A stretch of DNA of 64,000 nucleotides from a virus: IMG/VR virus record IMGVR_UViG_3300025030_000081, positions 1 through 64,000 of that record, one strand, 5' to 3'. The position numbers were made by a program, and so were the translations under genes. Shown piece after piece: positions 1,215-51,036 of this stretch (position 1 is its first letter; the number at the start of each line of letters is the position of its first letter). The notes beneath the pieces were generated by a model, which was not told the DNA's origin, searched no databases, and saw nothing but the letters and a program-made list of their open reading frames with translations.

Positions 1215-1248
1215 TCAGTAGGTCAAACTGATTACTAGGAGGGTTCGC

Positions 1249-1458: not shown

Positions 1459-1868
1459 TGGAGAACATCTACAATATCGGGTTCGCAGAGGGCGACGGCG
1501 AAGAGACCCCGCCTATCAAGCAGGGCTCGACTTTTGTACTTTCCTTCACCGTGAGCAACATCTTCGCTGAGGGCGGGGTAGGTACCACTCTGCGGGGGCA
1601 GTACCGGACAAGCTACGGAGCTACTGAGGCAGTCGATTTCGATTGCACCGTCGAGGTCGTTGCAGCGGTCGCGGAAACCGCGGACACTCCGGCAGTGGAG
1701 AGTTACCTGGATTGCACAGGCACCCTTTCAGCGGACGTTACCGACGGCATGGCACCAGGGCCGGGTGTCTACGATTTCGAGCTGGAGGACGTCAGCGGCT
1801 TCGTCTACCCGGCCCTTGGCGGTAAAGCCATGGTGCGCCCCAGCGCTTCGAGAGGAGTGTCACCATGA
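1458..1868 (+). CDS. Putative tail/baseplate-associated protein
   Basis: A 136-residue protein with alternating beta-type segments. The C-terminal half has the pattern 'GTLSADVTDGMAPGPGVYD' followed by 'GFVYPALGGKAMVRPSASR'. Similar short beta proteins, whose ends read like 'PG.Y.YDLEL...G.V..LL.G...V.P.VTR', are often found just upstream of phage tail fibre genes. It overlaps the previous stop and its own end overlaps the next start (ATGAGTG at 1865), so four genes here form one translational unit. A role in attaching or capping the fibre that follows is inference from position. Confidence 0.7.
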   Translation: MENIYNIGFAEGDGEETPPIKQGSTFVLSFTVSNIFAEGGVGTTLRGQYRTSYGATEAVDFDCTVEVVAAVAETADTPAVESYLDCTGTLSADVTDGMAPGPGVYDFELEDVSGFVYPALGGKAMVRPSASRGVSP

Positions 1869-3937: not shown

Positions 3938-3946
3938 GAAGATGCC

Positions 3947-7240: not shown

Positions 7241-7400
7241 AGAATCAGCTACGGAGGCGACATGATCGACTAATGAATTCTTGATTAACTAAGAAAAAGC
7301 TGATAATACTCTGTTTGAAGAGTTTTCATGACTAGCTGAGTATTGACCAGAATACCGAAACCTTGACTGACTGCTATATATATTCGATACAGGAGTGTTT

Positions 7401-7907
7401 ATGCCGCTTAGGTTTCACTGGTTAGAGACAGCAGTCATAGCATTAATCATGACGTTGAGTATCACTACCGGCTTTAGTGCAACAGCTCCAGTTGGCAACT
7501 GGACAAATCATGTAGATATCCCTTCGTTGTACGCCATAGCCGGTTACCTTGCTAAGATCATCGTAGCGACAATAACTGCCATGGGCGGGATCATCTGGCT
7601 TTTGGTCAAACAAATATGGAAACAAGACCGACAAGCTCAAACCGCGCAAATCGAAAAACTTCTCCTCAGCCAAGAAACCCTGATTAAAAATCAAACTATA
7701 CAAAGAAACAGCCTTATTCAAATGCACCAGGATACCTCGAAGAAGTTCGATCGGGTGATCGGTGCCATGGGTGAGTGCAAGACTTGTACTGCTGCGATCA
7801 AAGCCTACGATCACAAGCAGGAACAGCGACTGATACTGGATAGTGAGGATGACCATTGGACTGTTGACAACATGCCAGAGATGGTGGCCGGGGGAGAGAA
7901 CAGATGA
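7401..7907 (+). CDS. Two-span membrane protein with coiled coil
   Basis: The ATG at 7401 with AGGAG at 7391-7395 is preferred over a GTG at 7395. The 168-residue product has two membrane segments (about residues 8-30 and 47-70), then a helical, Gln-rich part (QDRQAQTAQIEKLLLSQETL) and a CKTC pair. The DNA is clearly richer in A and T than the flanking genes. Together with the small amidase relative that overlaps its end it may form a second lysis module. Holin or inner-membrane spanin are both possible. Confidence 0.65.
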   Translation: MPLRFHWLETAVIALIMTLSITTGFSATAPVGNWTNHVDIPSLYAIAGYLAKIIVATITAMGGIIWLLVKQIWKQDRQAQTAQIEKLLLSQETLIKNQTIQRNSLIQMHQDTSKKFDRVIGAMGECKTCTAAIKAYDHKQEQRLILDSEDDHWTVDNMPEMVAGGENR

Positions 7908-8164
7908 CACCCAAAGGGATTATTGTTCACCACAGTTTAACCCAGGACGGGATCGGCTACTGCGTAAATAAGGACCGCTACATCGACATCCGTATTGCTG
8001 GCGATTCTGCCGAGAGCATGGAGAGACTGGTAGACCTCACCATTAACCTGATCGTCATGTACGGGATAGCCGTTGACGACATCCACCCTGCGTCTAAGGG
8101 ATGTCTTGATACCTGCTTCCCCTGGGATGAGTATATCGACCGCGTAAAGGAGGTCATGTCATAG
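7904..8164 (+). CDS. Internally deleted amidase paralogue (mini-amidase)
   Basis: An 86-residue protein whose two ends match the endolysin at 5980-6477. The start MTPKGIIVHHSLTQDG parallels MKKPAGVIIHHSLTRDG, and the end with NLIVMYGIAVDDIHP, a Cys pair and CFPWDEYIDRVKEV parallels the endolysin's LLNLGVDTMH..., Cys and LFPWERFRTLVRDV. About 80 central residues, including the GYHAGVE and GAHCSG parts, are missing. The HH pair and a candidate C-terminal His/Cys remain, so zinc binding is possible, but catalysis is doubtful. It overlaps the previous stop by four bases. It might be a decoy, a regulator of the full amidase or a decaying copy. Confidence 0.75.
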   Translation: MTPKGIIVHHSLTQDGIGYCVNKDRYIDIRIAGDSAESMERLVDLTINLIVMYGIAVDDIHPASKGCLDTCFPWDEYIDRVKEVMS

Positions 8165-8295
8165 ACTGCCGAGCGTGGAGAAACGACAAGTGCAAGCTGG
8201 AAGCCTGTTCAAAATGGGACAGCTGCACATTGATGAATGACGCCGCCGTCACACCGGAGACGGCCCCTGCCACCAACAAGAAGCAGTCCTCATGA
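8161..8295 (+). CDS. Candidate 44-codon Cys/Trp-rich ORF without a normal start
   Basis: Directly after the mini-amidase stop, another frame reads DCRAWRNDKCKLEACSKWD and continues to a TGA at 8293-8295, with four Cys and two Trp in a regular spacing. No ATG, GTG or TTG exists in this frame after the preceding TGA at 8128. An AAAGGAGGT lies six bases before an ATA codon at 8161, so ATA initiation or a ribosomal shift from the mini-amidase frame would be needed. The Cys/Trp pattern looks coding, but this is weak evidence. Confidence 0.3.
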   Translation: MDCRAWRNDKCKLEACSKWDSCTLMNDAAVTPETAPATNKKQSS

Positions 8296-8331
8296 TTATG
8301 TAGCTATAAACTGACAAATATTGTAATAGAG

Positions 8332-8358
8332 TGGGGACGCCAATGTCCCCATTTTTTT
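8332..8358 (+). terminator. Rho-independent terminator before vRNAP gene
   Basis: TGGGGAC (8332-8338) pairs perfectly with GTCCCCA (8345-8351) over a six-base loop, followed at once by seven T. It separates the lysis genes from the virion RNA polymerase gene that starts 22 bases later, so the polymerase gene may have its own promoter or depend on read-through. Confidence 0.85.
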
Positions 8359-8379
8359 GTAATCCCACCGAGGTAACCT

Positions 8380-11300
8380 ATGACAAAACTCGCTGATTGC
8401 ATCACAGCCCACGGTGTAAAAACCCACACGAGACTGCCGGCAGATGTCAAGGCTGCGGTGGCTGCAGGAGATACAGCTTTAGCTGTATCGACAATGCAGG
8501 CACACGTAGCCGCCTTGAAAGCCCTCAAGCAAACGATAGAGATCCGGCACGAAGAAAACAAAAAGGATTTCATGGCGCAGACCGTTAGCAAGACGTCCGC
8601 CGCCTCCTACGTTAACCGTGGTGCTGCAGATCCAACCAACGAGCTGAATCATTTCCAGGTGAAGAGCTTCTCCAAGATCTGGAAGAATCTGGTCCAGCGC
8701 GCGGGCAGTTTCGGTGCCGCAGTAGGTCTGTTGAGAGCTAAACCGGATCAGGTGACTCCCGGCGAGCAGGCTGTGCTGGAACACTTCATGACTGGTCCGG
8801 AGAGTTTCGGCAGGCAGATGAGCGCTACGATCAACGCGATCTTCAAGGCCAAAGGGATGCACGACGGACCGAAGGCGGCCAGCAGTTTTCCTTTCCGCTA
8901 CGAGGACATGATCCAGTACCTGCCGGTCAGGTACCCGGCGGAGTTCGGGGAGAAGTCCAATCCGAAGGTGGACGAGCAGCATGCCAGGGATAACGGAATC
9001 CTGGATGGCCCGACCAGGAGCGCCATAGCCGCCACAGCGTACGAGTGGATCGCCACGAGTGGCAGGAAGAGCATGGCTCAGACCGAGTCCTCTCTGGGGC
9101 GTTTGCTGGGCCTGCAGAAGGATGAACCACTCCCGGGTAATTCCTGGGAGCTCCTGGAGCACGCCGGCATGAACGCCGAGACCGTGGCCAGGCAGCTTGG
9201 GAAAACGATCCTACAGCGTCTCAGTATCGCACCGGGACCGAAGTCGGACTCACTGGCGCAAAGCAGGATGGAGGAGTCCCTTGGCTTCATGGCTCTGGCG
9301 GCGATGGAATCGATGGGAGTCATCGAGCGGCAGTACGTTATCGCCGATCATACGGAGAAAGCCAGAGCAGCCCTCATAGCAGCCGGTAAACCGGTCCCTG
9401 CGATCGGACTGAACGCCCTGAAAGAGGACCAGCAGCTGGAACCCGGTGAGCTCTTCTACACGGACAATGGCAGTCCTGAGGGGCCACAGGGGCTACTGAT
9501 GATGCGCCTGGTCAAGGTTGCCGACCTCGACCTGCTGACCGACATCGAGGAGCACTTCAAAGAAGGCCGGGCCGCCTTCGACAAGGTGTTCGCCAACGAG
9601 CCTCAGGATTTCGGCATGCAGTGGAAGGCCCAGGTGAGGAAGGCATTCAAGATCGGCAGCTCCAACGTCGAGGCCAACGCCGAGCAGACCCGGAACATCA
9701 ACAAGTACAGCTCCATCCCTTACCAGCGCAACCCGGAAGCGATCGGCTTCCTGAAGTCCATGTGGGGACTGGTTGAAGGGATGGAAAAGGGAGAAGGGCA
9801 GGACCGACTGAAAGCGGTATTCTACGAGGCACTGGGTGCGCCACCGGCCGAGAATCTGCTGAAGCTGCACAAGAAAGGGAACGAGGGAATCCGGCGGGGG
9901 ATCGAGCAGGACTTCAGGGACGTACTGAACTACGAGGATGAGCACGCGAAGCGGGCAGCCAACGGGGAGAGCACGGAGTTCTACCTGTCGTCGGATTTCA
10001 TGTCCAACATGCGCATGATCATGCGCGGTGACATCAACCCACAGAACTCCAAGATGCACCGGAGCCTGTTCGCCCCTACTGGATTCCAGACGACGTTCAA
10101 AAAGGATCCCAAAGGGAAGCTGGACCAGGCTTTCTTGGAAGCGGTGGCAGTGGCGTTCGACATCGAGACCGGCAAGGGGTTGATCGGCGATGCAGCGGCC
10201 CAGGTGGCCGGACTGATGGACATCATAACCAACCCGGGTAATGACAAGCATGAGGCAGTCACCGCGGCGATCAAGGCCATACAGGCTTACCAGACCACCG
10301 GAGAAATGACGAGCCAGGCCATGGAAGTAATCGCTGTCGGCTCTGCAAAGGTGGACAACAAGGTCACCGGTCTGAAGGGACTCTTCGAGTACGCCCGCTA
10401 CGCAGCTACTCCGGTAGGCGCCGAGTTCAGCACCGACATGCACGCCGAGATTGACGGGGTCAGCAACGGGGTCATCATCGGCATCCTGCAGCTGATTCCG
10501 GACAGCGCGAACAAGCGAGCTGTACTGGCTACCCTGGCCATGGGTGGCATCAGCACCAGCACAGTCAGGGCCGACCTGAACAAGCTCCTGATCCAGAACA
10601 ATCTCAACGACGCCTACCAGCGCATGGCCCAGGAATGGGCAAAAGAGATCCTGACCTTGAAGAAGAAATGGGACACCTCCGAGAAGAGCAAAGACAACGC
10701 GCTCTTTGAGAAGGCCGAGGCTCTGGGGAGGATTCTCGGGGAATTCCAGGACCCGCAGGGTGTCATCAACAAAACCATTCGCAACCTCTCCAAACCAAGA
10801 ACCATGCAGATCATCTACGGCGCCGGCATACGCAAACAGGTCCAGCTGCTGACGGGCGAGAATGTCCTGCATGACGGGATCTACAAGAAGGTCGAGAAGA
10901 TCATGGCCAGGGTCCACAAAGCCAACGCAGCAAACCCGGACCCGCTGGTAAAAGAAGACTTCGCTGCGCTGATGAGAGCCGTCCGGACGCTCACCGGCAA
11001 TTCTTCCTACCATGCGGACAGGTACTTCACCGGTGACCAAGAAACGACCATCGCCAACCTGCAGACGTTCCACTTGAAACCGGAACATATCAAGACCCTC
11101 AACCAGGCCGTCGCGGATACCTACGGGTTGGCCATGTCCAACGCGATTCAGACAGTCTACGGCACACTGATCGAGGCGCGCAAACCGTTGACCGCCGCGG
11201 TGCAGCTGGCAGTCACGACGTACAACACCATCCTCAAAAAGAAGGTCGACCTGCTGGTCGAGGCACACAAAGCCGACGCCACGTTCAAAGGGGATCCGGA

Positions 11301-23398: not shown

Positions 23399-25357
23399 CT
23401 AGTCACCTCCGTTCTTGTAGTACTTCTTCTGCACGGTCTTACCGATGGTCTGTGCGATCTCGTCGCTGCTGAGCGGGTTCTCCAACTTCTCGTTCAAGCT
23501 GGCGATCTTCATGTCAATGTCCGCCAGGCTGTAGCCCGAGTCGACCAGCATCAGGCCGTACTTCAGGAGCTGGTTGTTGCGGTTGCCCCCGACGGTGTTA
23601 AGCATGAACCAGCGCTCGACGCCGCTCATGTTCTGGTGGTTCAGGACGAGCTCCTTGCGCTCGTCGTTCTTGCTGGTGCGCGGGATGAAGAGCAGGGCGT
23701 CCAGCATCTCCCCGCTGTTGGTGTGGATCTCCGTGCCGTCGTAGGTCGCCCATTTGCGGGCGCGCTGCCCGGTGTCCGTATCGCACTCGAAGGGGAGCCA
23801 GTCGAAGATGTTCCGCATGAACTCCTTGTAGTCCGTCTCGTTCAGCTTGAGGACGTAGTTCATCGGCATGACCAGCCGGAAGCGATGCTCCTGCGGGGTA
23901 TGGCGTTTGGTGGTGTGGATCACGTAGGTGTAGTCCTTGAGCAGGATCTTCACCGTATCTATCTTTACCCCGCCGTCGACATCCAGTACCAGCAGGTTGA
24001 AGCCGTTGACCATCTCCTCTTCCGCGCGCCGGCCGCTGATGGTGTGGTGACTGCACCAGTGGCGATCGGTCATTTTGAACAGCTCGGGGAGCTTGTCGAA
24101 GGGTGCCTGGACGTTCTCGTAACCGACTGCGAAGTCCTTGCTGTGGGACAGGTACATCTTATCCAGGCTGGTCGGCATGAGTGTTTCACCGGAGATGAAT
24201 TCGATGTTGTTCTCGAACTTCCGCTTGATGATGACGGAATTCTTGTAGCCCCAGGCAATCGCCAGCTGCAGCAGATCCACCTTGAAAGCCTGGGATCCCT
24301 TGTAGAAGGGGAGGCTCTCGGTCAGATCGACATGGGTGGCTTCCCGGTTGATGCTGGCCAGGTACTTGGCCAGCTTCACGTAATTCTTGTCCTGGTTCAT
24401 CATCTGCTTAAAAGCCTTGCCGGATTCTTCGCACATGGCGATGGCATGGTACAGGTTGTCCTCGGTGATCTCGCCGTGGCCGTCGATGAAGGCAAGGCCG
24501 CCTGCCAGCTTCAGTGCCTTGAAGTAGCGGTGGGCCAGTTCAGCTTTGAGCATCTCCTCGTGGTCGCCCAGCTTGTCGGCGATGTCCTCGCAATGGAGCT
24601 TGTACTCGATGAGCAGCAGGCTGACATCCTTGGATACCTGGATCTCCTTGCCGTAGTTGATCTCGGCGGCAAGTATGGCGAACCGGTTGGAGAGCGAGAC
24701 GATCAGGGCTTCCGCATTGGAGCTGGTGAGCTTGTCGTAGACGTCGGCAGCGGTCAGATGCTTGTTCCTGCCGGTCCCCTTGGTGTAGCCGAAGAAGCAG
24801 CGTCGGCCGTAACCCGTCTGGATAAAGGTCCAGAACTCGTCTTCGGTTTTGGCGCCGTCGAACAGTTTCGACGGGGTGCCGAACAGCATCAGGTTGGTGG
24901 GGGTCTTACCCTCGATCTCCTCGGAGCGGACGTTCTCCTTGGTGTTCTTGGTCAGCTTCTGTTTGACCTTGCCCACGTCGAAGAGCTCCAGGAAAGTCCC
25001 CAGGACGTCGACGTTACCCAGCAGGTTGGAGCCGATCTCGTCGATCTCCAGGTTCATGGCGCCGATGCCTGCCATCAGGAGCTTGTGGCGCATCTGCTTG
25101 ACCGCGGCAGTGGTACCCGAATCAAACGAGAAGGCCATTTTGCCCAGGCTTTCATACTCCTTCTGGACGTTGGCGTACATCTCGTCGAACTCGATCATCG
25201 GCGTGGTAAGGCTGGGATTCTGGTTGTGGATATTGGTTCGTTTTACCGCCAGTCCGCGGAGGTTCTTCTCGGCCAGCTGCGGCAGAGTCTCCTCAAAGAA
25301 GACCGTGCGGAACTTGCTGATGATGTGGTCCTCCAGGATATTGGTGCTGTGGCCCTT
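23399..25357 (-). CDS. Primase-helicase (N4 gp43-like), exon 2
   Basis: This exon encodes 652 residues and joins exon 1 at 26315-26536 after removal of a group I intron. It begins KGHSTNILE, which completes the Walker A motif started in exon 1 (GISGIG then KGHS). The N-terminal half is a DUF3987-type ATPase region. The C-terminal part has LLVLDVDGGVK followed by VIHTTKRHTPQEHRFRLVMP, the signature of an archaeo-eukaryotic-type primase (Asp pair, then a His/Arg strand), and a last helical domain. The full protein of about 726 residues would prime and perhaps unwind DNA. An ATG at 25198 lies inside exon 2 and would make a product without the P-loop Lys. Confidence 0.85.
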   Translation of the reverse strand, partial: KGHSTNILEDHIISKFRTVFFEETLPQLAEKNLRGLAVKRTNIHNQNPSLTTPMIEFDEMYANVQKEYESLGKMAFSFDSGTTAAVKQMRHKLLMAGIGAMNLEIDEIGSNLLGNVDVLGTFLELFDVGKVKQKLTKNTKENVRSEEIEGKTPTNLMLFGTPSKLFDGAKTEDEFWTFIQTGYGRRCFFGYTKGTGRNKHLTAADVYDKLTSSNAEALIVSLSNRFAILAAEINYGKEIQVSKDVSLLLIEYKLHCEDIADKLGDHEEMLKAELAHRYFKALKLAGGLAFIDGHGEITEDNLYHAIAMCEESGKAFKQMMNQDKNYVKLAKYLASINREATHVDLTESLPFYKGSQAFKVDLLQLAIAWGYKNSVIIKRKFENNIEFISGETLMPTSLDKMYLSHSKDFAVGYENVQAPFDKLPELFKMTDRHWCSHHTISGRRAEEEMVNGFNLLVLDVDGGVKIDTVKILLKDYTYVIHTTKRHTPQEHRFRLVMPMNYVLKLNETDYKEFMRNIFDWLPFECDTDTGQRARKWATYDGTEIHTNSGEMLDALLFIPRTSKNDERKELVLNHQNMSGVERWFMLNTVGGNRNNQLLKYGLMLVDSGYSLADIDMKIASLNEKLENPLSSDEIAQTIGKTVQKKYYKNGGD

Positions 25358-26314
25358 CGTTTGTGTTCAGGATGAGTCGTTAATTCATCCCCGTCATTTT
25401 ATGACTGCTCCACATCTCTGTGGAGACCAGACTATATCTTAAAGTCTTGTTTTGCATTTAATGCATCCAGATTGGTCAAAGGTTTGAAGATAGGATTGTT
25501 CTCTTGTTACTTCATTTCCACAAGAACAGCGTACATTAAAGTATTTTTTAGTCCCCCGATATTCAGCAAAACTCAGAATTGTCCAGTTATTGATTTGTGA
25601 CCCAATCAACTTTTCAATTATGCTGTCTGCTTTAATACCGGAGATACCTCTTGTACGCCCACCTTTAGATTGTGCTGCATGCAACCTGCCCTGTTTCTGG
25701 GCATGGACCATGTTACCTGAATGTGTTGTCCACTCAAGGTTGTCTACACAATTATTGGTTGGATCGTTATCTTTATGGTTCACTTGAGGCAACATTAATA
25801 TATTGGGTATGAACGCTTGCCCTACTAACTGGTGTACCAAATACCGTTTAGTAGTGTGCCCTTTACACAATGTGACCCTATGGTAACCATTTTTGCCTAC
25901 ATCAGGTTTCAGCTGTTTTTCTGGATAGTATTGTTCTTTGCCATTCTTGTTGATAATAATCCTGGGCAAAGACTTAACATCACCGAGTTTATTCACCTGA
26001 TATAAGCCTTCGTAACCTTTTATATCTTGATACATCAAACACCCCTTTACCTCAAATTTTGCCTAACTTAGCATAGCTTTTGGTAAAGGACAATACTTTA
26101 TTCCCATTTCGGATCACTTGATCCTACGCCTTGCGGCTAGTCGTTGAACCTTCTCCTGTACGGAGCTTGGCTGCTGATTGTCCATAGCTATTAAATTGTC
26201 AGGGGTCGCCAACTCATTTCTGGTTGGTATCCTATTAATAGATTAACTGGAGATCCCAGCAATTAAAGAATTTTTCCTTATGCACTCACATGCATAGGCG
26301 GCTAGATAGTACCA
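25358..26314 (-). mobile_element. Group I intron in the primase-helicase gene
   Basis: The 957-base intron is defined by exon fit and by RNA core elements. The 5' exon ends in GGT and the intron ends in G. A P1 helix forms between exon CGGU plus the first intron base and AGCCG at 26303-26299, with the required U-G pair at the splice site. A Q/P4-type segment (GACAATCAGCAGCCAAGC) lies near 26164-26181, an R/P7 segment (GTTCAACGACTAGCCGC) near 26149-26133, and an S segment AAGATATAGTC at 25440-25430. GACTA of R pairs with TAGTC of S. The HNH gene lies between R and S, as in other phage introns. Splicing restores the Walker A motif. Confidence 0.9.
25439..26035 (-). CDS. Intron-encoded HNH homing endonuclease
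   Basis: A 198-residue endonuclease with an N-terminal NUMOD4-type segment (DIKGYEGLYQVNKLGDVKSL), an HNH_3 core (VNHKDNDPTNNCVDNLEWTT, residues about 85-105), and a C-terminal part with CSCGNEV and CIKC that may bind zinc. The ATG at 26035 follows AAAGGGG. The stop TAA overlaps the S element of the intron. The gene is far richer in A and T than the host gene. It would cut intron-less alleles of the primase gene to spread the intron. Confidence 0.92.
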   Translation of the reverse strand: MYQDIKGYEGLYQVNKLGDVKSLPRIIINKNGKEQYYPEKQLKPDVGKNGYHRVTLCKGHTTKRYLVHQLVGQAFIPNILMLPQVNHKDNDPTNNCVDNLEWTTHSGNMVHAQKQGRLHAAQSKGGRTRGISGIKADSIIEKLIGSQINNWTILSFAEYRGTKKYFNVRCSCGNEVTREQSYLQTFDQSGCIKCKTRL

Positions 26315-26536
26315 ACCGATGCCACTGATCCCCAGGTTTATCCCGTAGAAGTTGATGGGGATGTCTCCCCGGTCTTTCGTCTTGATATGGACGCGCATGG
26401 TTGCCGCCATCTTGCAGACGTAGTAACAGACCATCATTCGGAAGAACTGAGGCAGGGAGTTCTGTGTCTTTTCACACAAGAGCTCCACTATCTGTTCTGT
26501 CGTCGGATGGAAGGTCAGCTTGCTGAGATCCCTCAT
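26315..26536 (-). CDS. Primase-helicase (N4 gp43-like), exon 1
   Basis: Exon 1 encodes 74 residues from an ATG at 26536 with AAGGAG six bases upstream. It starts MRDLSKLTFHPTTEQIVELL and ends INFYGINLGISGIG, the first half of a Walker A motif. Without splicing, the frame reads on into the intron for 23 codons and stops at 26243. The exon overlaps the end of the 86-residue gene upstream by 65 bases. Confidence 0.85.
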
Positions 26537-26732
26537 GATGCCTCTCCTTGGTGAATTGTTGGCGCTTGATGTCAAGCATTTCAGTGATCAGTAATCTAAA
26601 AGCGGCCTGCAGCCGTTCGGCAACTTCCTCGGCGTGGGCGTTCAAAGCATCAAGCGACGTCTGTTCTTCCGGTGTCAGGGTTTCTGAGTCGATGAAACGT
26701 GCCGTCAGATTGGTTTCCAGATGCAGGGACAT
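26472..26732 (-). CDS. Small helical protein overlapping the primase start
   Basis: An 86-residue, mainly helical acidic protein (TPEEQTSLDALNAHAEEVAERL). Its ATG comes one base after the stop of the RecB-like nuclease gene (TGACATG), so its translation is coupled. The last 65 bases overlap primase exon 1 in another frame, and the ribosome site of the primase lies inside it. No family was recognised. The long overlap and the ordinary start support a true gene. Confidence 0.6.
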   Translation of the reverse strand: MSLHLETNLTARFIDSETLTPEEQTSLDALNAHAEEVAERLQAAFRLLITEMLDIKRQQFTKERHHEGSQQADLPSDDRTDSGALV

Positions 26733-29821: not shown

Positions 29822-30322
29822 CTAAGGTTGGGGCTGTAAATTTCTCCCGTGATTAGGATGGTATCCATACCGTATTTCTGCACTTTTTCTGGCATCGATA
29901 GCCTCCTGCTTATCACTAAAACGACCCAAGGGTATGGGCCTAGATTCATGCCAAATCATTGCTACCCATTTGTTACGAGTAACTGACCAAGATACACCTA
30001 CAACCCCTGATTTATTATTTTTTTGAATAGTACAGTTGCGATTGTTGTCTGTCATGGAAGCATCAAACAGATTTCCCCATTTATTATTTAATCTGTTATG
30101 ATCATCGTGGTCCACATATCTGGGCAATACTCCAGTTTTCATCAAGTAAATGGCTCGATGTGTTTTTAAAACTTTGCCTTTAAAACCGAAGTATCTGTAT
30201 CCATCAGAACTGACATAGCCAGCTTCTTCTCCGATTTTACATTTACCTGATTGTTTTTTCCAGATGAGCTTTCCTGTTATTTCATCGTAATGAAAGTACT
30301 CATGTAACTCGGTGCTTGTCAT
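29822..30322 (-). CDS. HNH-AP2 homing endonuclease splitting the DNA polymerase
   Basis: A 166-residue endonuclease. The HNH core lies in VDHDDHNRLNNKWGNLFDAS; a C-terminal AP2-type DNA-binding segment follows (GVVGVSWSVTRNKWVAMIW, IPLGRFSDKQEAIDARK). The ATG at 30322 has GGGAG five bases ahead. Its first 23 bases overlap the end of the polymerase N-terminal gene, and its stop is 12 bases before the C-terminal part. There is no room for a group I intron core, so this is a free-standing gene inserted into the polymerase gene. Confidence 0.9.
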   Translation of the reverse strand: MTSTELHEYFHYDEITGKLIWKKQSGKCKIGEEAGYVSSDGYRYFGFKGKVLKTHRAIYLMKTGVLPRYVDHDDHNRLNNKWGNLFDASMTDNNRNCTIQKNNKSGVVGVSWSVTRNKWVAMIWHESRPIPLGRFSDKQEAIDARKSAEIRYGYHPNHGRNLQPQP

Positions 30323-32357
30323 AGTATTCTCCCATAGGGCGTTGATTACCGTCAGGGCATAGTACCATCGTATCCGCAGTAAGTATATGGGTTTTTCCAT
30401 CAACAGTTACTTTAAATTTTCGACCACTGTTTACTGCTTGTTGTAAATCCGGCATGGTATCTTTAAAGTAACTATAGGCGCGGATGGAGTGGCCGTCGAA
30501 ACCGTCGAGGTAGACCTTCATCTTGTTCGGATCCCTGGTGGTCAGGGCTGAGACCATATCCTCCAGGGAATTGAAATCAGCGCCGCCGAAGAGCCATCCG
30601 GCGATGCAGCCGAAGCAAGTTTTAATCAGCTCCCCCCAAGTGGATTTTGCAGGGATGTTGGTTAGGTTGGGGTTGGAACTGGACAGGCGTCCGGATACGG
30701 TCCCACCCAGGTTGAAGTTTCCATAGAGGCGCCAGCTGCTATCCGGCATCTGTACGGCCTTCTCGAAGGCAGGGATGAACGAAGTCAGGATCTTGTCCAC
30801 TTGAGCCAAACCGATCAGGGATTCGATGATCTCCAGGATGTCCTGATTCTGGGTCTGGTGCAGCAGTTTCTCCAGGGTGTCCCCGCCGGTTGCCGGCTGA
30901 CCGGTATCGGTGGTATCCAGGACCGGTAATCCCAGGTAGGTGTAGAGCAGGTTGGCTACCTGTTGGCCGCTGTTCGGGTTGAACTCCAGACGGGCCACCC
31001 TCGGGTCGTCCATGTCGAAGACTTTCTTCTTGGCGGCCGCGGTGAACTCGGCGCATTTCTGAGCCTTCACTTCCAACTGGAATTCCCGGATCAGTTGGGA
31101 GTTGTCGAGCTTGGCCTTGTACCCATCACTCAGCGTAGTCAGGGCTTGCTTGACTCTGGCCACCTCATCCGGGAAGATCGGCATGCCGGACAGCTCGGTC
31201 TGCAGCAGGGTGATCAGGGAAGGCTTGAACAGCTCCTCGTAGATCCCCATCTGGTTGCTGCTGATCATGCGCGTGTAGTACTTGTGGTAGACGTACCAGG
31301 TGCCCAGGGTGTCCTTGCCGTTGTACTCCAGCAGGCGGGGCAGCTCGATCTTGTCGGTATCCTCGATGTTCTCCTCGGCGTAATCGCCCAGGTAATCCGC
31401 GGCGAGCACCTTGAGTTTCAGGACGTTTTCCACAGCGTTGTTGGTGGCGAGGTACGTGATCAGCTTGGTGTCGTCGAAGTTCCTGGTCAGGATCTGGATC
31501 CCCTGGATCATACCCCGGTAGTCCTGGAGGTCGGTCATCCAGAGCTCATAAACCAGAACCTTGAAGTCGTAGCCGGCGTTGTGTGCGATCAGTCTGCCCC
31601 GGTAGTTCTCGAAGAAAACCTTGAGCATGTTCTTTACGTAGCTGCCGAACGATTGGGTGAAGACGGTGGTTACGTCTTCTGGAAAAGAGCCGCGGTCCAC
31701 CGGGATCGAAATGAAGTTGTGCTGGTCCCAGGCGAAGGCAATGGTGGCGATCCCGCAGTTCCAGAATTCCAGACTGCGGCTCTCGATGTCGACCGTCAGC
31801 GCAGGCTTGGTGTGGAGAAATTCCAGGGCATCGGAGATCTCCGCCAGCGTCATCGGGTACCGGGCGGAATGGATGACGTTGGTTCCCGGGGCGACGTACG
31901 CTCCCGACAGGTGCTGCTTCAGATAGGCCAGAGCGGTGTCGACTTCTTTCGCGGTATGCGGGTTGTACTTGGCCGCGTTGTAGTTGGGCGCGTAGAAGAC
32001 GTCGAAAGCGTCCTCGTACCCGGTGAGGCTGGATTTGACTGCGTATCCGATGTAGTTGGTGGCTGCCTTCTGCTTGCCGGTGAGGTACTTGAAGTACTTC
32101 GCGTCGGTCACCAGGATGGTGCCGATGCACAGCGACTTGACCGAATGGAGCAGCGTCTGGAGATGCTCCTTGGCCAGCGCTGCCTGGCATTTATCGTTGT
32201 CGTCGTACCAGAGGCTGTACGCTATGAACCCGGCCGGGTTGGCGCCGATCGGGTCGATGTAGGCCGACTTGATCTTTCCGCTGTTGAAGCTGGTTTCCTT
32301 GACGAGGATGGCGACCGATGCTGAAGCGGGGTCAGCCCCGTAAGTGGCGTGCTGCAT
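30300..32357 (-). CDS. DNA polymerase A family, N-terminal part with exonuclease domain
   Basis: A 685-residue protein. An N-terminal accessory domain (1-185) is followed by a 3'-5' exonuclease with Exo I (ALTVDIESRSLEFW), Exo II (LIAHNAGYDFKVLV) and Exo III (YNGKDTLGTWYVYHKYY), then polymerase motif A (GGADFNSLEDMVSALTTRDP). From about HSIRAYSYFKD on, codons become AT-rich, and the protein ends in an unusual tail (KVTVDGKTHILTADTMVL..., GEYYDKHRVT) before a stop inside the HNH gene. Motifs B and C are encoded by the gene at 29082-29807. The main replicative polymerase (N4 gp39 type) is therefore made as two chains. Confidence 0.9.
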   Translation of the reverse strand: MQHATYGADPASASVAILVKETSFNSGKIKSAYIDPIGANPAGFIAYSLWYDDNDKCQAALAKEHLQTLLHSVKSLCIGTILVTDAKYFKYLTGKQKAATNYIGYAVKSSLTGYEDAFDVFYAPNYNAAKYNPHTAKEVDTALAYLKQHLSGAYVAPGTNVIHSARYPMTLAEISDALEFLHTKPALTVDIESRSLEFWNCGIATIAFAWDQHNFISIPVDRGSFPEDVTTVFTQSFGSYVKNMLKVFFENYRGRLIAHNAGYDFKVLVYELWMTDLQDYRGMIQGIQILTRNFDDTKLITYLATNNAVENVLKLKVLAADYLGDYAEENIEDTDKIELPRLLEYNGKDTLGTWYVYHKYYTRMISSNQMGIYEELFKPSLITLLQTELSGMPIFPDEVARVKQALTTLSDGYKAKLDNSQLIREFQLEVKAQKCAEFTAAAKKKVFDMDDPRVARLEFNPNSGQQVANLLYTYLGLPVLDTTDTGQPATGGDTLEKLLHQTQNQDILEIIESLIGLAQVDKILTSFIPAFEKAVQMPDSSWRLYGNFNLGGTVSGRLSSSNPNLTNIPAKSTWGELIKTCFGCIAGWLFGGADFNSLEDMVSALTTRDPNKMKVYLDGFDGHSIRAYSYFKDTMPDLQQAVNSGRKFKVTVDGKTHILTADTMVLCPDGNQRPMGEYYDKHRVT

Positions 32358-33008: not shown

Positions 33009-33460
33009 GACTATTGCCACCTGTCTTAACCGACCGGGATTCGGGCAGGCTGGCTCAATGGTGTGCTGGCACTCTGCATTACGCGCGGGCTTGTGACCGC
33101 CGTCGGCTGCATTTCCTCCCGTGGTGTGGCATTCCAGGCCGGTGTTTTGGTCGCTGTCCTAACGAGTCCTTGGGCGACTCTTCCACGGGGCTAGTCAGAG
33201 GTTGTCCCCAGCGTGAAGGCTGTGCCAACTTGACCCCAAATTGGTGCCGGCTTCCCACCGGCTTGAGGATTCGCTGCTTTTAGTATGAAGGTGATCTGCA
33301 TCCTTAATATTGCACCTTGAATTGCCAGTCTCTCCCGGCTGTCGCGCCACTTTAGCGTATAGCATCGGTTCCAGCACTCATGTCACCGAAAACGGGAGTT
33401 GCCGTCTCTCCGGCTGTCACCCCTCATACAGATCTTGGCGAGGTTACCGTGAGGCGAAGG
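33009..33460 (-). ncRNA. Candidate structured non-coding RNA region
   Basis: This 452-base gap has no convincing gene. Read on the minus strand it is GC-rich and dense in hairpins: two related ones share the layout GACA-stem-GAGAGA loop-stem-AA (GCCG/CGGC near 33402-33415 and GCCGG/CUGGC near 33326-33341); others are CCGUUUUCGG, a 6-bp AAGGUG/CACCUU stem with an inner UGCA/UGCA, GCCGG/CCGGC, and GAGUC/GACUC. It might be a phage non-coding RNA or a long regulatory leader. I could not match it to a named RNA class. A 60-codon open frame in it (33195-33377) does not look protein-like. Confidence 0.3.
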
Positions 33461-40314: not shown

Positions 40315-41322
40315 TTAGAAGATCTCGGATGCGACCGCGTGCGCCCAGTCACGGATGGCCGGAACCTGGAGCAGTTCCTTCTTGCGCTTCAGGGTTGCCC
40401 GGATCGAGGTGGTGCCGAACTCCAGCGGCAGGCGCTTGACGTACTTCATCAGGATGTCGGCGCTGGCCTCGTCGATGTAGGAGGCGACCATGTGGCTCAC
40501 CGCGTAGAGCAGGGCCGGATCGTCGGGAACGGTGATCCCCGTGGGATCTCGCTTGATGTCGTTGATGCTGGGGAGCGAGGAGCAGTAGCTCAGGTAGGCG
40601 TTGAACTCATGGGCGATGCCGGCCGACAGGGTGCCGATAAGGATGTCCAGCATCCCGAGGGATACCTCCCTATCCTTGATCAGCTTGGAGGCGAATTCCC
40701 AGGTCCTGGGGCACGAGAAGGTGGTATCGTTGTGGTTGGGATCGAAGTTGTGCAGGTGTTCGGGACGACCCTCTATGTAGCTGACGATCCTGTGGTCGAT
40801 GCCGTTACCGGTGGCCCACTCGATCCAGAGGCGCGCGTCGACGTCCAGCTCCAGGTGGATCAGGCGGGACTGCATGGCCGTGCTCATCCGGTTCACGATG
40901 GCGCCGTCGGTCACCTTGTTGCCGGCGCAGACGATGGCCACGTTCTTGTGCAGATGGTGGCTACCAACCTGCCGGTCCAGGACGAGCTTGTAGGCTGCAG
41001 CCTGGACCGCCAGCGGAGCCGAAGGGAACTCGTCCAGGAACAGCAGCCAGCCGTCGTAACCGTCCGGTGGGGTATCCAGACCCTGCAACGGGAAGTGCTC
41101 CGGCGGGGCGTAACCCATGCGGGATCCGTTATGGGTGGGGAAACCGCAGAGGTCGGTAGGGTCGCACTGGGACAGGCGGAGGTCGATCACCTTGAGCCTG
41201 AACTGCTTGGCTATGCCACGGATGATGTCGGATTTGCCGATGCCCGGGCTTCCCGCGATATAGGGAACCAGGCCGGCAGCGAGTATGGTGACTACTGATT
41301 CCTGTAAGTCTTTCGAGTTCAT
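40315..41322 (-). CDS. MoxR-type AAA+ ATPase (N4 gp24-like)
   Basis: A 335-residue AAA+ protein. Walker A is AGSPGIGKSDIIRG near residue 24, Walker B lies in DGWLLFLDEFPSAPLAVQ, and sensor elements follow (VAIVCAGNKVTDGAIVNRMS, the usual asparagine strand and Arg). The C-terminal lid is helical. In N4 the same type of gene lies beside the vWA-type protein; here the partner is at 37699-38868. The pair likely remodels a protein complex; the target is unknown. Confidence 0.88.
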   Translation of the reverse strand: MNSKDLQESVVTILAAGLVPYIAGSPGIGKSDIIRGIAKQFRLKVIDLRLSQCDPTDLCGFPTHNGSRMGYAPPEHFPLQGLDTPPDGYDGWLLFLDEFPSAPLAVQAAAYKLVLDRQVGSHHLHKNVAIVCAGNKVTDGAIVNRMSTAMQSRLIHLELDVDARLWIEWATGNGIDHRIVSYIEGRPEHLHNFDPNHNDTTFSCPRTWEFASKLIKDREVSLGMLDILIGTLSAGIAHEFNAYLSYCSSLPSINDIKRDPTGITVPDDPALLYAVSHMVASYIDEASADILMKYVKRLPLEFGTTSIRATLKRKKELLQVPAIRDWAHAVASEIF

Positions 41323-41971: not shown

Positions 41972-42319
41972 TCAGTACACCTCGTAAAGGAGCTGCGCGA
42001 TGAACTCCTTCATCGCCTTGTTGGACCACTCCTTCATCTTCAGGCGGGGCATGCGGATCAGGATGGCCGGATGGTCATACATCATGACGTGGACCAGGGT
42101 GCGCTTCCTGTTGACGAAGGCCGTCCAGTCTCGGCCCTTGGCGCAGTCCATCGATTTAGAGACCTGGTCGACCTGCAGGTTGTAATCCAGCTTCAGGCGG
42201 ACTCGGCGTTTGATGGGTACCTCTTCTTCCACCGGGATGAGAACACCCTCTAGCTGCATGTTTTCGAGCTCTCTTTTTGTCCGGTCTGTCAAGCCTGCTG
42301 CATCGATTCTGTACAGCAT
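41972..42319 (-). CDS. Hypothetical protein downstream of the ligase/HNH locus
   Basis: The ATG at 42319 with GGAG upstream gives 115 residues. The middle is beta-rich and basic (IKRRVRLKLDYNLQVDQVSK, WTAFVNRKRTLVHVMMYDHP), the end helical. It starts 18 bases after the stop of the HNH gene. This short distance is consistent with that HNH stop being the original stop of the ligase gene. No domain was recognised. Confidence 0.68.
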   Translation of the reverse strand: MLYRIDAAGLTDRTKRELENMQLEGVLIPVEEEVPIKRRVRLKLDYNLQVDQVSKSMDCAKGRDWTAFVNRKRTLVHVMMYDHPAILIRMPRLKMKEWSNKAMKEFIAQLLYEVY

Positions 42320-42336
42320 CTGGGTCTTCTCCTTTC

Positions 42337-42966
42337 CTATTCTCCCGGGAAGCGCAGCAGCTTCATGTAGTCGGTATCCGCGGCAGTCACCACGTCGGTG
42401 GTCCCCTCGTACTGGGGTTTTCTGCCTTGCCGTCTTGCTTTCGCATATTCCGTAGCACACTGCTTATGCTGGTATACGAAACTTTTTTGCCCATTAAAAC
42501 TTTCGGTCATGTTTTTAGTAAAATCGTACTTACCACACAACCTACATTTTCTTTTATTAGCGTTTCCGCAGTCTTTATACGCTTGCATTGACCGATGAAT
42601 TTCGGTGTGTTCTGCCCGTGTTAGGGCCAGCAAGTTTTCTATTCTGTTGTCAGTTTTTATTTCATTTATGTGGTGGGATACTTCAGATGGTAATAACTGA
42701 CGTCCAAGAAAATTCTCCAACACCATTACATGTTCGTATGTGTATGGGTTTTTTCTTCCAATTCTTTTGTCTGCAACTTTTATGTAACCGCCTGATTTTA
42801 TTTTTCCACCACTCCATGAGGATGATTCTGCTCCGGCTAGAGTTGTTACTTTTGCGTGGTGATGCTGCACGAATCTACGATATTCACCCTTTTTAATACC
42901 TTCACTTGTTGTTGTTTTAGTAGCCATAGCAGTCGGCATTCCACAACCACATTCGCATAATTTCAT
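42337..42966 (-). CDS. HNH endonuclease carrying the displaced ligase C-terminus
   Basis: A 209-residue protein. It starts with a Cys-rich piece (MKLCECGCGMPT), has the HNH core HHINEIKTDNRIENLLALTR (about residues 97-116) and a CRLCGKYD finger. Its last 26 residues, from PQYEGTTDVV to DYMKLLRFPGE, match the end of the DNA ligase just upstream (PIYQGARDDC to DWNKLLRPPEE). The tail is written in GC-rich phage codons while the HNH part is AT-rich. The element thus inserted near the ligase 3' end, gave the ligase a substitute end, and now reads the old one. AAAGGAG precedes the ATG. Confidence 0.9.
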   Translation of the reverse strand: MKLCECGCGMPTAMATKTTTSEGIKKGEYRRFVQHHHAKVTTLAGAESSSWSGGKIKSGGYIKVADKRIGRKNPYTYEHVMVLENFLGRQLLPSEVSHHINEIKTDNRIENLLALTRAEHTEIHRSMQAYKDCGNANKRKCRLCGKYDFTKNMTESFNGQKSFVYQHKQCATEYAKARRQGRKPQYEGTTDVVTAADTDYMKLLRFPGE

Positions 42967-43026
42967 ATACTACTCCTTTTTCATATTTGTCATAGTATAC
43001 ACTGTCTACCAGCAACAACAACAACA

Positions 43027-44178
43027 TTATTCTTCTGGTGGCCTTAATAGTTTATTCCAATCTGTATCCATTGCTGTACAGTCATCTCGTGCCCCTTGAT
43101 AGATCGGCTGGAACAGCGAACCGTCTTCGTAGTAGTACTTGTAGCGGATCTCGACGAACTCCCCGATCTGCGGGATGGCGTAGTTGGCCGGTATGGTCAC
43201 GTTGCCCACCGGCACCCAGACCTGCTTGGCCAGGTCGTAGCAGGCGAGTGCCACGCTTCTCTTGCCTTCAGTGATCCCGGTAACGATGGCCTGGGTGTGC
43301 TGCCAGAAGATCACCTTGAGCTGGTCGCCCAGGCGGTTCGGCCGTCCTTCGGTATGCGCCGCGTCCAGTCGCTTGAAGACGACCCCTTCCCCGCCGGCCG
43401 ATTTCACCCTGTCCCAGAGTTCCTGCTTGGCTGCAGTCGAGGTCCACAGCGGTACCAGCTCAACGGAGTCGTTGCAGTAGGTTCGGTGAAATTCCAGCAG
43501 GTCGTTGTAACGCTGCAGATAGGGGTGGCTTTTGCGGGAAAAGCAGTTCAGATCCAGGAGGTCGAACGCGTAGAGCTTGCTGCCGATTATCTCACCGTCC
43601 AGCTGCAAGGAGAACAGCGCCGCGTTGAAGCTGACGGGCGTAGGGACGGTGAACCCGAGCTTGTTGGCTCCCCGCGGTTCCCGGTTCGTGGGATCGACCA
43701 GCACCGTATGGCGCCTGCCGTTCTTCTTCTCCTGGGCTCCCCAGGCGTCGTCGTCGAGGTAGGCCTGAGCCTCCTCCTCGGAGATCTCGTTCAATAGTTG
43801 GGGCAGGAAGCCGGAGGGGATCTTCTCCATGGCTTTCTTGCGGGTGTCCGTCATGACCCTGGTGTCGACCATCACATCGTCAACCATGATGGTCTTGACA
43901 GTGAAGTCGCCTGTGCCCGGGTCCACGGCAACCTGGTGCCCCCAGACGTTGCCGCTGATCCCGTTGGCTACCTGGTAACCCTTGGCCAGCTTCTCGTTGA
44001 ATTTCTTGGTGAACTCCGCGGCGGCTTTGGCTGCAGTCGGGTGGTCCTGCTGGGACATGGCCAAGCCCGATCCGCGCCGGCCATAGGCCACATGCAGGGC
44101 GGTCCCGTTCTGCAGGAGATGGTATACCTTGTCGGATCCGCCGCCGGTGAAGTGGAGGTCGGCTGTCTGTTTTGTCAT
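43027..44178 (-). CDS. ATP-dependent DNA ligase with N-terminal WGR-like domain
   Basis: A 383-residue ligase. Residues 5-70 form a WGR-like domain (LLQNGTALHVAYGRRGSG). The adenylation motif is WGAQEKKNGRRH, with K151 as the likely AMP-binding Lys in KxNG form. Other motifs are LQLDGEIIGSKLYAFDLL, GEGVVFKRLD (motif IV) and LGDQLKVIFWQ (motif V). The C-terminal OB part ends in about 21 AT-rich codons that were supplied by the mobile element downstream. The enzyme seals nicks in replication and repair; WGR domains are linked to DNA-break binding. Confidence 0.92.
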   Translation of the reverse strand: MTKQTADLHFTGGGSDKVYHLLQNGTALHVAYGRRGSGLAMSQQDHPTAAKAAAEFTKKFNEKLAKGYQVANGISGNVWGHQVAVDPGTGDFTVKTIMVDDVMVDTRVMTDTRKKAMEKIPSGFLPQLLNEISEEEAQAYLDDDAWGAQEKKNGRRHTVLVDPTNREPRGANKLGFTVPTPVSFNAALFSLQLDGEIIGSKLYAFDLLDLNCFSRKSHPYLQRYNDLLEFHRTYCNDSVELVPLWTSTAAKQELWDRVKSAGGEGVVFKRLDAAHTEGRPNRLGDQLKVIFWQHTQAIVTGITEGKRSVALACYDLAKQVWVPVGNVTIPANYAIPQIGEFVEIRYKYYYEDGSLFQPIYQGARDDCTAMDTDWNKLLRPPEE

Positions 44179-46892: not shown

Positions 46893-48101
46893 TTATGAGA
46901 GGAAGTAGTCGGCTTCCATGATGTGGTCGCCCAGATCGTCGGACAGTTTGGCGTAGTTGTAGCGGCGGTCGTTCCTGAGCTCCCTGATGATCTGGACGCC
47001 GACGTTGCTGTCGGCCAGCTCCGCCAGGATGTCCCGGTAGACCTCCCGCATCTCGTTGGCGTAGTTGGGGTGGCACTTGAATGCATCGTGGATGGTGAGG
47101 ACCGGGAAGCTTGGTCTGGTGAGGGTTTCCTGGATCAAGGAAAGGAGCTCTTCAAGGTAACCAACGGTGAACTGACTGATGTTCTCCGGGTTGACGATCT
47201 CGACACCGCGCAGGCTGAGGAAGCCGTGGTTCGCTGCGTTGATCTCGAAGGGGTGGGTGGGTTCGGTAACCCGGGAGGTGAGTTTCTGATACTGGATCAA
47301 TGCGGCTACGTCCTCGAGGTGATCCCGGTCGTAGTTGCAGCGCCTGACGGTCTCCCTGACGAGGAAGCCGTCAACCGAGTGGGTGGCATTGGCGGCCACT
47401 GCCAAGCCGTACTCGGAGCCGATGTTCTCCTCGTAGACGTAGGTGAGGGTGGCGTGATCCAGCTCGTCGATCTCGATCTTGGACTTCATCTTCTGAAGCA
47501 CCGGTACCTTCGCCTGATAGCCGTCAGGCAGAGTGTTGTGGTGGAAGAGGGCATTGGGCTGCCATGAGGCCAAGAGCTCCTGCATGAGGAAGCAGGCGCC
47601 CGGAGCGACCATTTCCTGAGCCTGATAGAAGGCGTAGAGCTCAGGGGACTCGTCTCCGAAGATCCGCTTGGGAGTAGCCACGCTCCCATAGTAGTGAGTC
47701 ATCGTCGCGGATTTGGCGTCCGATCTCGGCACCACCACCTCGCTCGGCAAGAGCTCGTTCATGGCTGCCGTGCACTGGCCGTACATGTCCATGCGCTTCT
47801 TACCGGTGACCCCGGTGTTGGCGCTGGTCACCGGGCAGCCGGTGAGGATACCCAGTATCGAGATCCCCGAGGCGCAGGCGTCCAGCTCAACCAGAAAGCC
47901 AGAAGGTCTCCCGGCCAGAGCGTCCTCCAGAGCCAGCACACCGGCAAGGAACTGGGCGGGCTTCTCGGCCTGAGCCACCTTGGAACGCAGATCCTTGATC
48001 GAATCCACCCAAGCGATGCGCTGTCTGAAGCTCTTCTTGTCCAGCCCGTAGTTGTTGGCGATGTCGATCTTGATGTATTCAAGCGCTGAAAATTTCATCA
48101 T
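46893..48101 (-). CDS. Phage RNA polymerase II, catalytic subunit (N4 gp16-like)
   Basis: A 402-residue protein with three T7-like polymerase motifs: motif A with D74 in VELDACASGISILG, motif B as R126-x3-K130-x7-Y138-G139 (PRSDAKSATMTHYYGS), and motif C with H338-D339 in LTIHDAFKCHP. N4 gp16 has almost the same length and content. The N-terminal partner with the DTRGR motif is encoded at 49587-50390. Together they transcribe middle genes. The first codons (AAA TTT TCA) are AT-rich, and the start overlaps the stop of an HNH gene. CAGGAG precedes the ATG; 48098 is an alternative start. Confidence 0.9.
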   Translation of the reverse strand: MMKFSALEYIKIDIANNYGLDKKSFRQRIAWVDSIKDLRSKVAQAEKPAQFLAGVLALEDALAGRPSGFLVELDACASGISILGILTGCPVTSANTGVTGKKRMDMYGQCTAAMNELLPSEVVVPRSDAKSATMTHYYGSVATPKRIFGDESPELYAFYQAQEMVAPGACFLMQELLASWQPNALFHHNTLPDGYQAKVPVLQKMKSKIEIDELDHATLTYVYEENIGSEYGLAVAANATHSVDGFLVRETVRRCNYDRDHLEDVAALIQYQKLTSRVTEPTHPFEINAANHGFLSLRGVEIVNPENISQFTVGYLEELLSLIQETLTRPSFPVLTIHDAFKCHPNYANEMREVYRDILAELADSNVGVQIIRELRNDRRYNYAKLSDDLGDHIMEADYFLS

Positions 48102-48772
48102 GGGATACTCTCCTGTATTTTATGTGGAAGTTTGTGATTTAAGATGTATTGGTTTCTGTGAGTTACAGCGGCGTGTTCTGTAGGGAAGACACCAAGGTGT
48201 ATGTTTTGAAATTTAACACAAATTCTTGCTCTCCACCTACCTTCACCAATACAATTAACACCCATAAAATTGAATTTAGTATTTAGCATTTTATTACGAT
48301 TTGCTTGTTGAGCTGGTTTAGCAACCCAATGACAATTATCAGGTGAATACCCTAAATCATTATTTTGGCGGTCTAGTTCTAATGCTTCGTTAAAGCCATT
48401 TTGTCTAGCCCATTGAGCAAACACAGCATAGTCTTTCCACTCTGGGCATATGCTTATTCCTCTTGCACCATATCTACGATATGCTTTGGATTTAGGATTA
48501 TTACATCGTTGATTCATTGATTTCCAGCGTTTGTATAGTATGGATAGCCCATGTTGGGGAGCTTCTCCGTGGATAGTTTGTTCTGTGAATTGCCCACAAC
48601 CACATGTTTTAGCTCTACCTGATCTAACATTACCAAGTACCATTACTTTTGTTGAACCACACTCACACTGAAATAAGGCCAATCTACAGTTTTGTTTGAG
48701 GCGTGGAGCATCCTGTAAATAGGTCAATTTGTTGAACTTATCACCATGATTAATGTGGATAACTTTTGGCAT
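48098..48772 (-). CDS. HNH/AP2-type homing endonuclease before the RNA polymerase gene
   Basis: The ATG at 48772 with AAAGGAGG ahead gives 224 residues. It contains a Cys-rich N-terminal part (ALFQCECGSTK, CGCGQ), the segment YRRYGARGISICPEWKDYAV and LELDRQNNDLGYSPDNCHWV typical of phage HNH-type endonucleases, and an AP2-like C-terminal domain (FMGVNCIGEGRWRARICVKF). The gene is very AT-rich. Its stop overlaps the RNA polymerase start, so it is inserted without disrupting the coding sequence. A host-type promoter lies upstream. Confidence 0.88.
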   Translation of the reverse strand: MPKVIHINHGDKFNKLTYLQDAPRLKQNCRLALFQCECGSTKVMVLGNVRSGRAKTCGCGQFTEQTIHGEAPQHGLSILYKRWKSMNQRCNNPKSKAYRRYGARGISICPEWKDYAVFAQWARQNGFNEALELDRQNNDLGYSPDNCHWVAKPAQQANRNKMLNTKFNFMGVNCIGEGRWRARICVKFQNIHLGVFPTEHAAVTHRNQYILNHKLPHKIQESIP

Positions 48773-48799
48773 ATAGCCTCCTTTGAGCAATCGTGTCGT

Positions 48800-50594: not shown

Positions 50595-50662
50595 GGTGTT
50601 CTCCTTGAGTTAGTTGAAAAACGGTAGCCACCCTAAACTGCTTGGATGGCTACCGGTGGAGG

Positions 50663-50992
50663 TTAGTTGAAGACCGGCTTCTGCACCAGCTTGATGGCGC
50701 TGATGTCCAGCTTCTCGGGCTGCTCGGCGTGGATGACGATGCGGAGTTCCGCGTTGACGATTGCGGTGCCACCGTTCTCCGTGGCGAGCTGGATCAGTGC
50801 CTTCTCCTGCAACGAGAGGTATTCGTTGTCGATCAGGCTGAAGCCGCGGTTGGACCTGAGGATCGGCTTGCCGTCGTCGCCGTTGATGCTCCAGTTGACG
50901 AAGGCTAAGACCTTGGCTTTCTCTTTGACGAGAGCGGGCTTGAGAGCGGGAGCGGAGGAAGATTGAGCGGATTTGAGATTGGGTTTTGCCAT
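50663..50992 (-). CDS. Hypothetical early protein
   Basis: A 109-residue protein with a basic Ser/Ala/Lys-rich start (MAKPNLKSAQSSSAPALKPA) and a compact beta part (VLAFVNWSINGDDGKPILRS, GTAIVNAELRIVIHAEQPE). AAAGGAG precedes the ATG. The shared 17-base motif lies 45 bases upstream. An overlapping frame (50610-51035) is not protein-like. No family was recognised. Confidence 0.7.
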   Translation of the reverse strand: MAKPNLKSAQSSSAPALKPALVKEKAKVLAFVNWSINGDDGKPILRSNRGFSLIDNEYLSLQEKALIQLATENGGTAIVNAELRIVIHAEQPEKLDISAIKLVQKPVFN

Positions 50993-51036
50993 GATAGGAC
51001 TCCTTTGATCGAATGTAATACCTGACGGTATCCACT

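Follow-up and report, generated by a model that had tools for sequence, protein, structure and literature searches.

Mobile endonuclease ORFs that replace the end of a conserved gene are known from fungal mitochondria, where those of Glomus sp. atp6, atp9, cox2 and nad3 create gene hybrids (PMC3630166); atp6 of Allomyces macrogynus is mentioned in the same source as an earlier case. In such hybrids, the host core is followed by an in-phase foreign C-terminus, an endonuclease ORF and the displaced native C-terminus, the last of which matches insert-free relatives (PMC3630166). The locus described here, a DNA ligase gene and an HNH gene in a window of 64,000 nucleotides of viral DNA, is built in a similar manner. 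An in-phase foreign C-terminus is indicated by a codon switch and a lineage mismatch at ligase codon 359, and the displaced native C-terminus matches an uninterrupted relative. The fungal elements differ in encoding LAGLIDADG or GIY-YIG enzymes and in residing in mitochondria (PMC3630166), whereas the window holds an HNH_3 gene in a phage, and only in the window is the displaced end translated as the C-terminus of the nuclease. An earlier note on this DNA had taken the strategy to be undescribed for HNH genes. In general terms it does have precedents, namely the fungal LAGLIDADG and GIY-YIG cases (PMC3630166); for phages and HNH genes, no report of end replacement was found among the open-licence literature, and such a report may exist elsewhere.

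Regarding phages, the available passages of the homing literature describe co-conversion and gene splitting, with no end replacement among them (PMC2988022, PMC10448857). The mob genes of T4 resemble the present case in that an HNH gene adjoins a conserved replication gene and spreads by break repair with co-conversion, but those passages place them between genes or in split genes and mention no replacement end (PMC2988022). Similarly, mobE of Aeh1 in nrdA and mobA of T4 in the topoisomerase are HNH genes within conserved genes; according to the same passages both gene pieces must assemble there, whereas the window ligase has its own full-length end (PMC2988022). The HNH element in the methylase of mycobacteriophage ShiLan is neither an intron nor an intein, and its HNH stop lies at the right edge (TAAC), as in phage SkinnyPete discussed below; unlike the window element, it is an in-frame insert through which the methylase frame continues, its HNH gene uses a different frame, and a replacement end is absent (PMC11855218). 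Read-through of this kind was considered for the window and discarded, as the ligase stop precedes the HNH gene. Some integrases restore the 3′ end of a tRNA or another gene at their attachment site. They share with this locus the insertion at a gene 3′ end and the restoration of that end from the element; they differ in that no integrase is seen at the window and in that the end supplied here is diverged in DNA instead of identical.

Organization of the ligase–HNH locus

All features of the locus lie on the minus strand. The ligase gene (44178-43027, 383 aa) has its own stop at 43027, ahead of the HNH gene (42966-42337, 209 aa). The ligase core, codons 1-358 (43105..44178), is written in GC-rich phage codons and comprises a WGR domain (PF05406, E=5e-7) and a nucleotidyltransferase region, for which the RNA_ligase and DNA_ligase_A_M matches are weak. 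Codons 359-383 and the stop (43027..43104) are AT-rich and constitute the replacement 3′ end, the left part of the inserted element. An AT-rich spacer follows (42967..43026), with a Shine-Dalgarno-like AAAGGAG ahead of the HNH start and no significant promoter or terminator match. The HNH gene proper, codons 1-183 (42418..42966), is likewise AT-rich and contains the catalytic motif of a phage HNH homing endonuclease at residues 78-120 (42607..42735; HNH_3, PF13392, E=5.9e-9). Codons 184-209 of the HNH gene, together with the old ligase stop (42337..42417), return in frame to GC-rich phage codons and represent the displaced native ligase 3′ end. The next phage gene (41972..42319, 115 aa) has no Pfam family above its curated cut-off; a ribosome-binding site belonging to this gene lies immediately behind the old ligase stop, GAATAGGAAAGGAGAAGACCCAGATG. 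The assignment of the phage as N4-like is supported by a 2550-aa ORF with a sub-threshold match to the N4 vRNAP helical domain and by the presence of an RNA polymerase ORF.

Comparison of the two gene ends revealed that ligase residues 358-383 (PIYQGARDDCTAMDTDWNKLLRPPEE) and HNH residues 184-209 (PQYEGTTDVVTAADTDYMKLLRFPGE) are identical at 15 of 26 positions; both homologous tails lie where the earlier note had placed them. The shared residues use a different codon in 12 of 15 cases, and the DNA agrees at 39 of 78 nt, with a longest exact run of 6 nt. The local alignment score of the tails is 69, which none of 20,000 shuffles reached (maximum 43), and a score of 70 compares with a maximum of 39 in 4,668 pairs of HNH tails and random upstream genes from other loci; chance similarity is ruled out by these two controls. 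The codon usage of the two genes switches reciprocally at the homologous point. GC3 of the ligase is 0.83 in codons 1-357 (at least 0.68 in every 25-codon window) and 0.24 in codons 359-383, while that of the HNH gene is 0.33 in codons 1-183 (at most 0.50 in every 26-codon window) and 0.85 in codons 184-209; the most extreme sliding window of either core falls short of the value of its tail. Blocks of 20 codons, the scale on which the earlier note had proposed to examine codon use, place the switch at the same point in both genes, and its description of a GC-rich HNH tail and a ligase tail that is AT-rich like the element thus proved accurate.

Homologous copies on both sides of an HNH gene are also what would be left by a tandem duplication of the ligase 3′ end within the phage, with later insertion of the HNH gene between the copies and divergence. 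This course of events is very improbable, since the copies share so few nucleotides, are opposite to each other in codon usage and each match another lineage of ligases, and since the empty alleles of mycobacteriophages described below carry a single end. Still less credible is an HNH gene inside a group I intron or intein with the native end as the downstream exon. Elsewhere in the same phage, at 25408-26324, an HNH gene does lie in a group I intron, and the phage of the closest ligase relative, contig L001, has a group I intron in an ATPase gene; however, no RF00028 match was detected in 42200-43400 even at a permissive threshold, the single match in that scan being at chance level and to another family, and Pfam gives HNH_3 alone in the HNH protein, with no splicing domain. 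Furthermore, the ligase is already closed, ahead of the HNH gene, by an end that is homologous and complete and has its own stop. On the Rfam and Pfam results, an intron or intein at this locus is ruled out for practical purposes. There is strong reason to read the locus as an HNH element that sits in the last ligase codons, brings a differently spelled end and takes the original one as its own tail.

Origin of the native and replacement ends

The sole close ligase relative found, on the IMG/VR contig L001, is 68% identical and has no HNH gene behind it. Its end, GSLFQPQYEGTTDVATDLDTDFNKLLRFTGEGE, closing with PQYEGTTDVATDLDTDFNKLLRFTGEGE, shares 17 of 22 tail residues with the HNH tail, compared with 13 of 22 for the window ligase tail. 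In a tblastn search of the HNH protein against the whole L001 phage, the best match aligned residues 182-209 with the end of the ligase (71%, E=1.4e-7). As the L001 ligase is itself AT-richer (GC3 0.43), the argument for the native end rests on the protein match instead of on the codons of L001. The window ligase end carries G-A-R-D-D-C, a form close to that of more distant ligases (GKRDDV, GERDDL), and therefore appears to derive from another ligase lineage. Moreover, the HNH relatives L003, L006, L008 and L009 have C-termini within about 10 residues of position 183 (L008, for example, stops after NERSRAAYARRQVSL), and the 26 extra residues are unique to the window protein among the HNH relatives compared. 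The L001 match, the two codon switches and the tail-less HNH relatives together argue that the native ligase end was displaced and now forms the C-terminus of the HNH protein, and the lack of any intron match fits as well; in this respect the exchange of ends that the earlier note had proposed is borne out.

The HNH tail was also sought away from ligases, where the earlier note had seen a possible contradiction. It is absent from the HNH relatives, and a degenerate pattern, run on viral and genome contigs with the donor of the AT-rich end in mind as well, retrieved only the phage of L001 and the chance matches L033 and L034; a donor phage for the AT-rich end did not emerge from these contigs. 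Ligase relatives were not found in genome contigs; phages yielded one partial match of 33% (Tunturi_5) and plasmids only distant ones. With a lone close uninterrupted ligase at 68% identity, the insertion point in the window is known only to within a few codons.

AlphaFold2 models ligase residues 351-380 confidently (85-90), with a strand at 359-364, while the confidence for HNH residues 187-209 is below 50 in a model that is weak overall; the 26-residue tail is probably disordered. According to these predictions, the end is probably needed by the ligase and probably not by the HNH protein. As the ligase has a complete end that is predicted to fold, the old end looks spare; in a split gene of the Aeh1 nrdA type, both pieces would be needed for function.

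Gene-end replacement in other phages

About 290 HNH loci from IMG/VR were screened for an upstream gene whose end is repeated, in any frame, behind the HNH gene (each end quoted in this section is followed by a stop codon). A C5-methyltransferase (PF00145) on contig L066 ends with AGNAVSCNVAHFLGKAIAAVL and is followed by an HNH gene and then by GAVAVSANVANWLGRAIAEVL out of frame. A second gene of L066 ends with LYDGREVYRTEDGRYAKKPPVEAAA, followed by an ORF judged HNH-like by eye, with no Pfam match, and by LFTDREIYRSEDGQYRDKAPGEMAA. This single contig thus presents two separate gene-end replacements by nuclease-like ORFs, at 938-3225 (minus strand) and at reverse-strand 3000-4480. A Cas4/PDDEXK-like nuclease of L197 ends with GEDTKCLMYCPVAQFCPHGQTVLPCS, followed by a NUMOD4-HNH gene and GEDTKCDSYCPVSDFCPFARAKKSDV, and a gene of L244 ends with YRNASGYYLRSGSKKRRLCKKIGKK, followed by a NUMOD4-HNH gene and YRDAVGYYLRQGAKKRGSKKKTSKASKPPTRF across the HNH stop. 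L260 is a possible further instance; together with L012, L083 and L251 it was not placed among the clear ones. The matches L007, L058, L077, L230, L042, L295, L149, L279 and L013 were rejected as paralogous, repetitive or of low complexity.

End copies without wider paralogy occurred in 5 of 140 genes before an HNH ORF and in 5 of 2669 others (Fisher P=6e-5), a figure that is indicative only, because the first count includes the window itself and L260 and the second includes the second L066 case. No swapped end was found in the screen of 22 HNH relatives (L003-L024), and none is visible in most of the HNH loci screened, so that the arrangement is a minority one. The out-of-frame position of its displaced end let L066 escape an HNH screen restricted to in-frame copies. 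In the other phages the displaced native end is mostly not in the HNH frame and either follows the HNH stop or spans it; only in the window is it in frame with the HNH gene, supplying its stop, and at no other locus was a displaced end seen to be captured in frame as the tail of a nuclease. Conserved motifs near gene ends are the sites of insertion: two methyltransferases whose HNH genes differ are entered at GNAV, the Cas4-like nuclease at its cysteine cluster, and the ligase at SLFQP-x-Y-x-G, in which Q357, P358 and G362 are invariant. This is as expected for homing endonucleases aimed at conserved sites. Loss of such a conserved gene end would presumably be costly. The end of a gene on L012 (18-3977), KVVPVRHGRRRKLAGVM, recurs as KVVTVKHGRHRKVASNM behind a 69-aa ORF with no recognised HNH motif, possibly a similar end-repeat design with another cargo.

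Among relatives of the methyltransferase, a decisive parallel is found in isolated Mycobacterium phages, where the swap can be read directly from the empty alleles of Piper2020 and TChen. The methyltransferase gp52 of SkinnyPete ends with SGNAVTPCAARDLVGVVAQSLGVSA, and the annotated HNH gene gp53 and then NAVTPPAARDLVGVVAESLGVTS, out of frame, come next. Occupied alleles are present in SkinnyPete, Awesomesauce and Misha28, while Piper2020, Farewell, Mao1, TChen and Xavia are without that HNH gene and have one end only (NAVTPPAARDLVGVVAESLGVAS in those translated). Both allele types are therefore represented here, in comparison with one empty ligase relative at 68% for the window. The replacement end of SkinnyPete has the same meaning as Piper2020 in 20 of 24 codons (stop counted), 16 of those 20 being respelled, and 44 of 72 nt match; the displaced end matches at 64 of 72 nt between SkinnyPete and Piper2020 and at 72 of 72 nt between Misha28 and TChen. 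By blastn, Piper2020 7368-7429 was matched twice in SkinnyPete, by the new end and by the displaced end. From the HNH stop codon onward, Misha28 tracks TChen at 99.86% over 700 nt, whereas Awesomesauce, which has the same element as Misha28, continues differently after that stop; native sequence completes this TAA codon. GC3 in the SkinnyPete type is 0.29 for the replacement end, 0.66 for the HNH gene and 0.88 for the methyltransferase core, and the additional AT-richness of the end hints at selection for divergence.

These cases bear on another history, in which a free-standing HNH gene of the ordinary kind followed the ligase of an AT-rich phage and a single illegitimate exchange brought the ligase end and the HNH gene into this phage; the end would then be a passive co-conversion tract and no standing part of an element. 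Phage homing genes normally co-convert flanking DNA, as far as the available passages describe them (PMC2988022), and at the window the replacement end and the HNH gene share a low GC3, as expected of neighbours in a donor. A one-off event is nevertheless rather unlikely, given that at least five further phage genes show this layout, and given a mycobacteriophage unit of end and HNH gene that is 98.8-99% identical, flanks included, in unlike phages, and the difference in GC3 between that end and its HNH gene.

A candidate homing element with a recoded gene end

The preferred reading, and a very probable one, is that the segment 42418-43104 is a mobile HNH element that entered the ligase gene at codon 358/359 and brought a replacement end. 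The element, of about 690 bp, consists, 5′ to 3′, of the replacement ligase 3′ end, the spacer with its ribosome-binding site and the HNH gene. The HNH enzyme would nick or cut insert-free ligase genes within their 3′ end, at the conserved SLFQP-x-Y-x-G, and repair templated by an element-bearing genome would copy the element in. The swapped-in end would keep the protein but not the DNA sequence, so that the ligase should stay functional while the target is broken up; as the two ends are too different in DNA, the element would not easily be recombined out. At the right junction the HNH stop would have been lost, which would have appended the displaced end to the C-terminus of the nuclease, and the whole would act as a homing element that brings its own recoded rescue.

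In synthetic Cleave-and-Rescue drives, a nuclease is likewise linked to a recoded, cleavage-resistant copy of its target, the recoding serving against both cleavage and gene conversion; those systems differ in being engineered, in rescuing a whole gene and in not requiring insertion at the target (PMC7951863). The gene-end swap has the look of a naturally occurring gene drive that carries its own rescue. A wider proposal, for which we see an even balance of probabilities, is that phages harbour a recurrent, unnamed class of HNH elements, each carrying in recoded form the 3′ end of its conserved target gene, as natural home-and-rescue drives whose rescue end is held divergent by selection against self-cutting and loop-out, and that the window element recruited its displaced end as nuclease C-terminus.

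On this interpretation, a selfish nuclease gene could occupy a conserved phage gene with neither intron nor intein by bringing a spare ending, which would extend the fungal-mitochondrial trick to bacteriophages and HNH enzymes, may account for chimeric gene ends and for HNH genes abutting conserved genes, and would provide a natural counterpart to rescue gene drives. The proposal is directly testable, since the isolated phages of the laboratory host M. smegmatis mc2 155 include both carriers of the occupied allele (SkinnyPete, Awesomesauce, Misha28) and carriers of the empty one (Piper2020, TChen). The repetition of a gene end behind a nuclease gene provides a simple search signature for further cases.

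Several other elements were observed in the window, all on the minus strand. The group I intron mentioned above (RF00028, E=1e-7, under the gathering score) holds a NUMOD4-HNH gene (25442-26038) and apparently interrupts a gene formed of ORFs 26243-26575 and 23399-25198. A further AT-rich HNH_3 ORF (29825-30403) overlaps the 3′ end of a 685-aa gene (30300-32357), and the screens did not pick up a repeated gene end there. Two AT-rich ORFs with no Pfam family, 48101-48790 and 50613-51035 (GC3 0.28 and 0.40, in a GC-rich genome), may be further mobile nuclease genes; the former lies directly upstream of the RNA polymerase ORF (46893-48101). A sub-threshold match to a type-P1 twister ribozyme is located at 33066-33118 (33.8 bits, E=8e-4). 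In L001, the MoxR-like ATPase gene (7058-8934) is broken by the group I intron (RF00028, E=3e-4), which contains a NUMOD4-like HNH gene, and the window copy of this ATPase gene (40315-41322) is intact.
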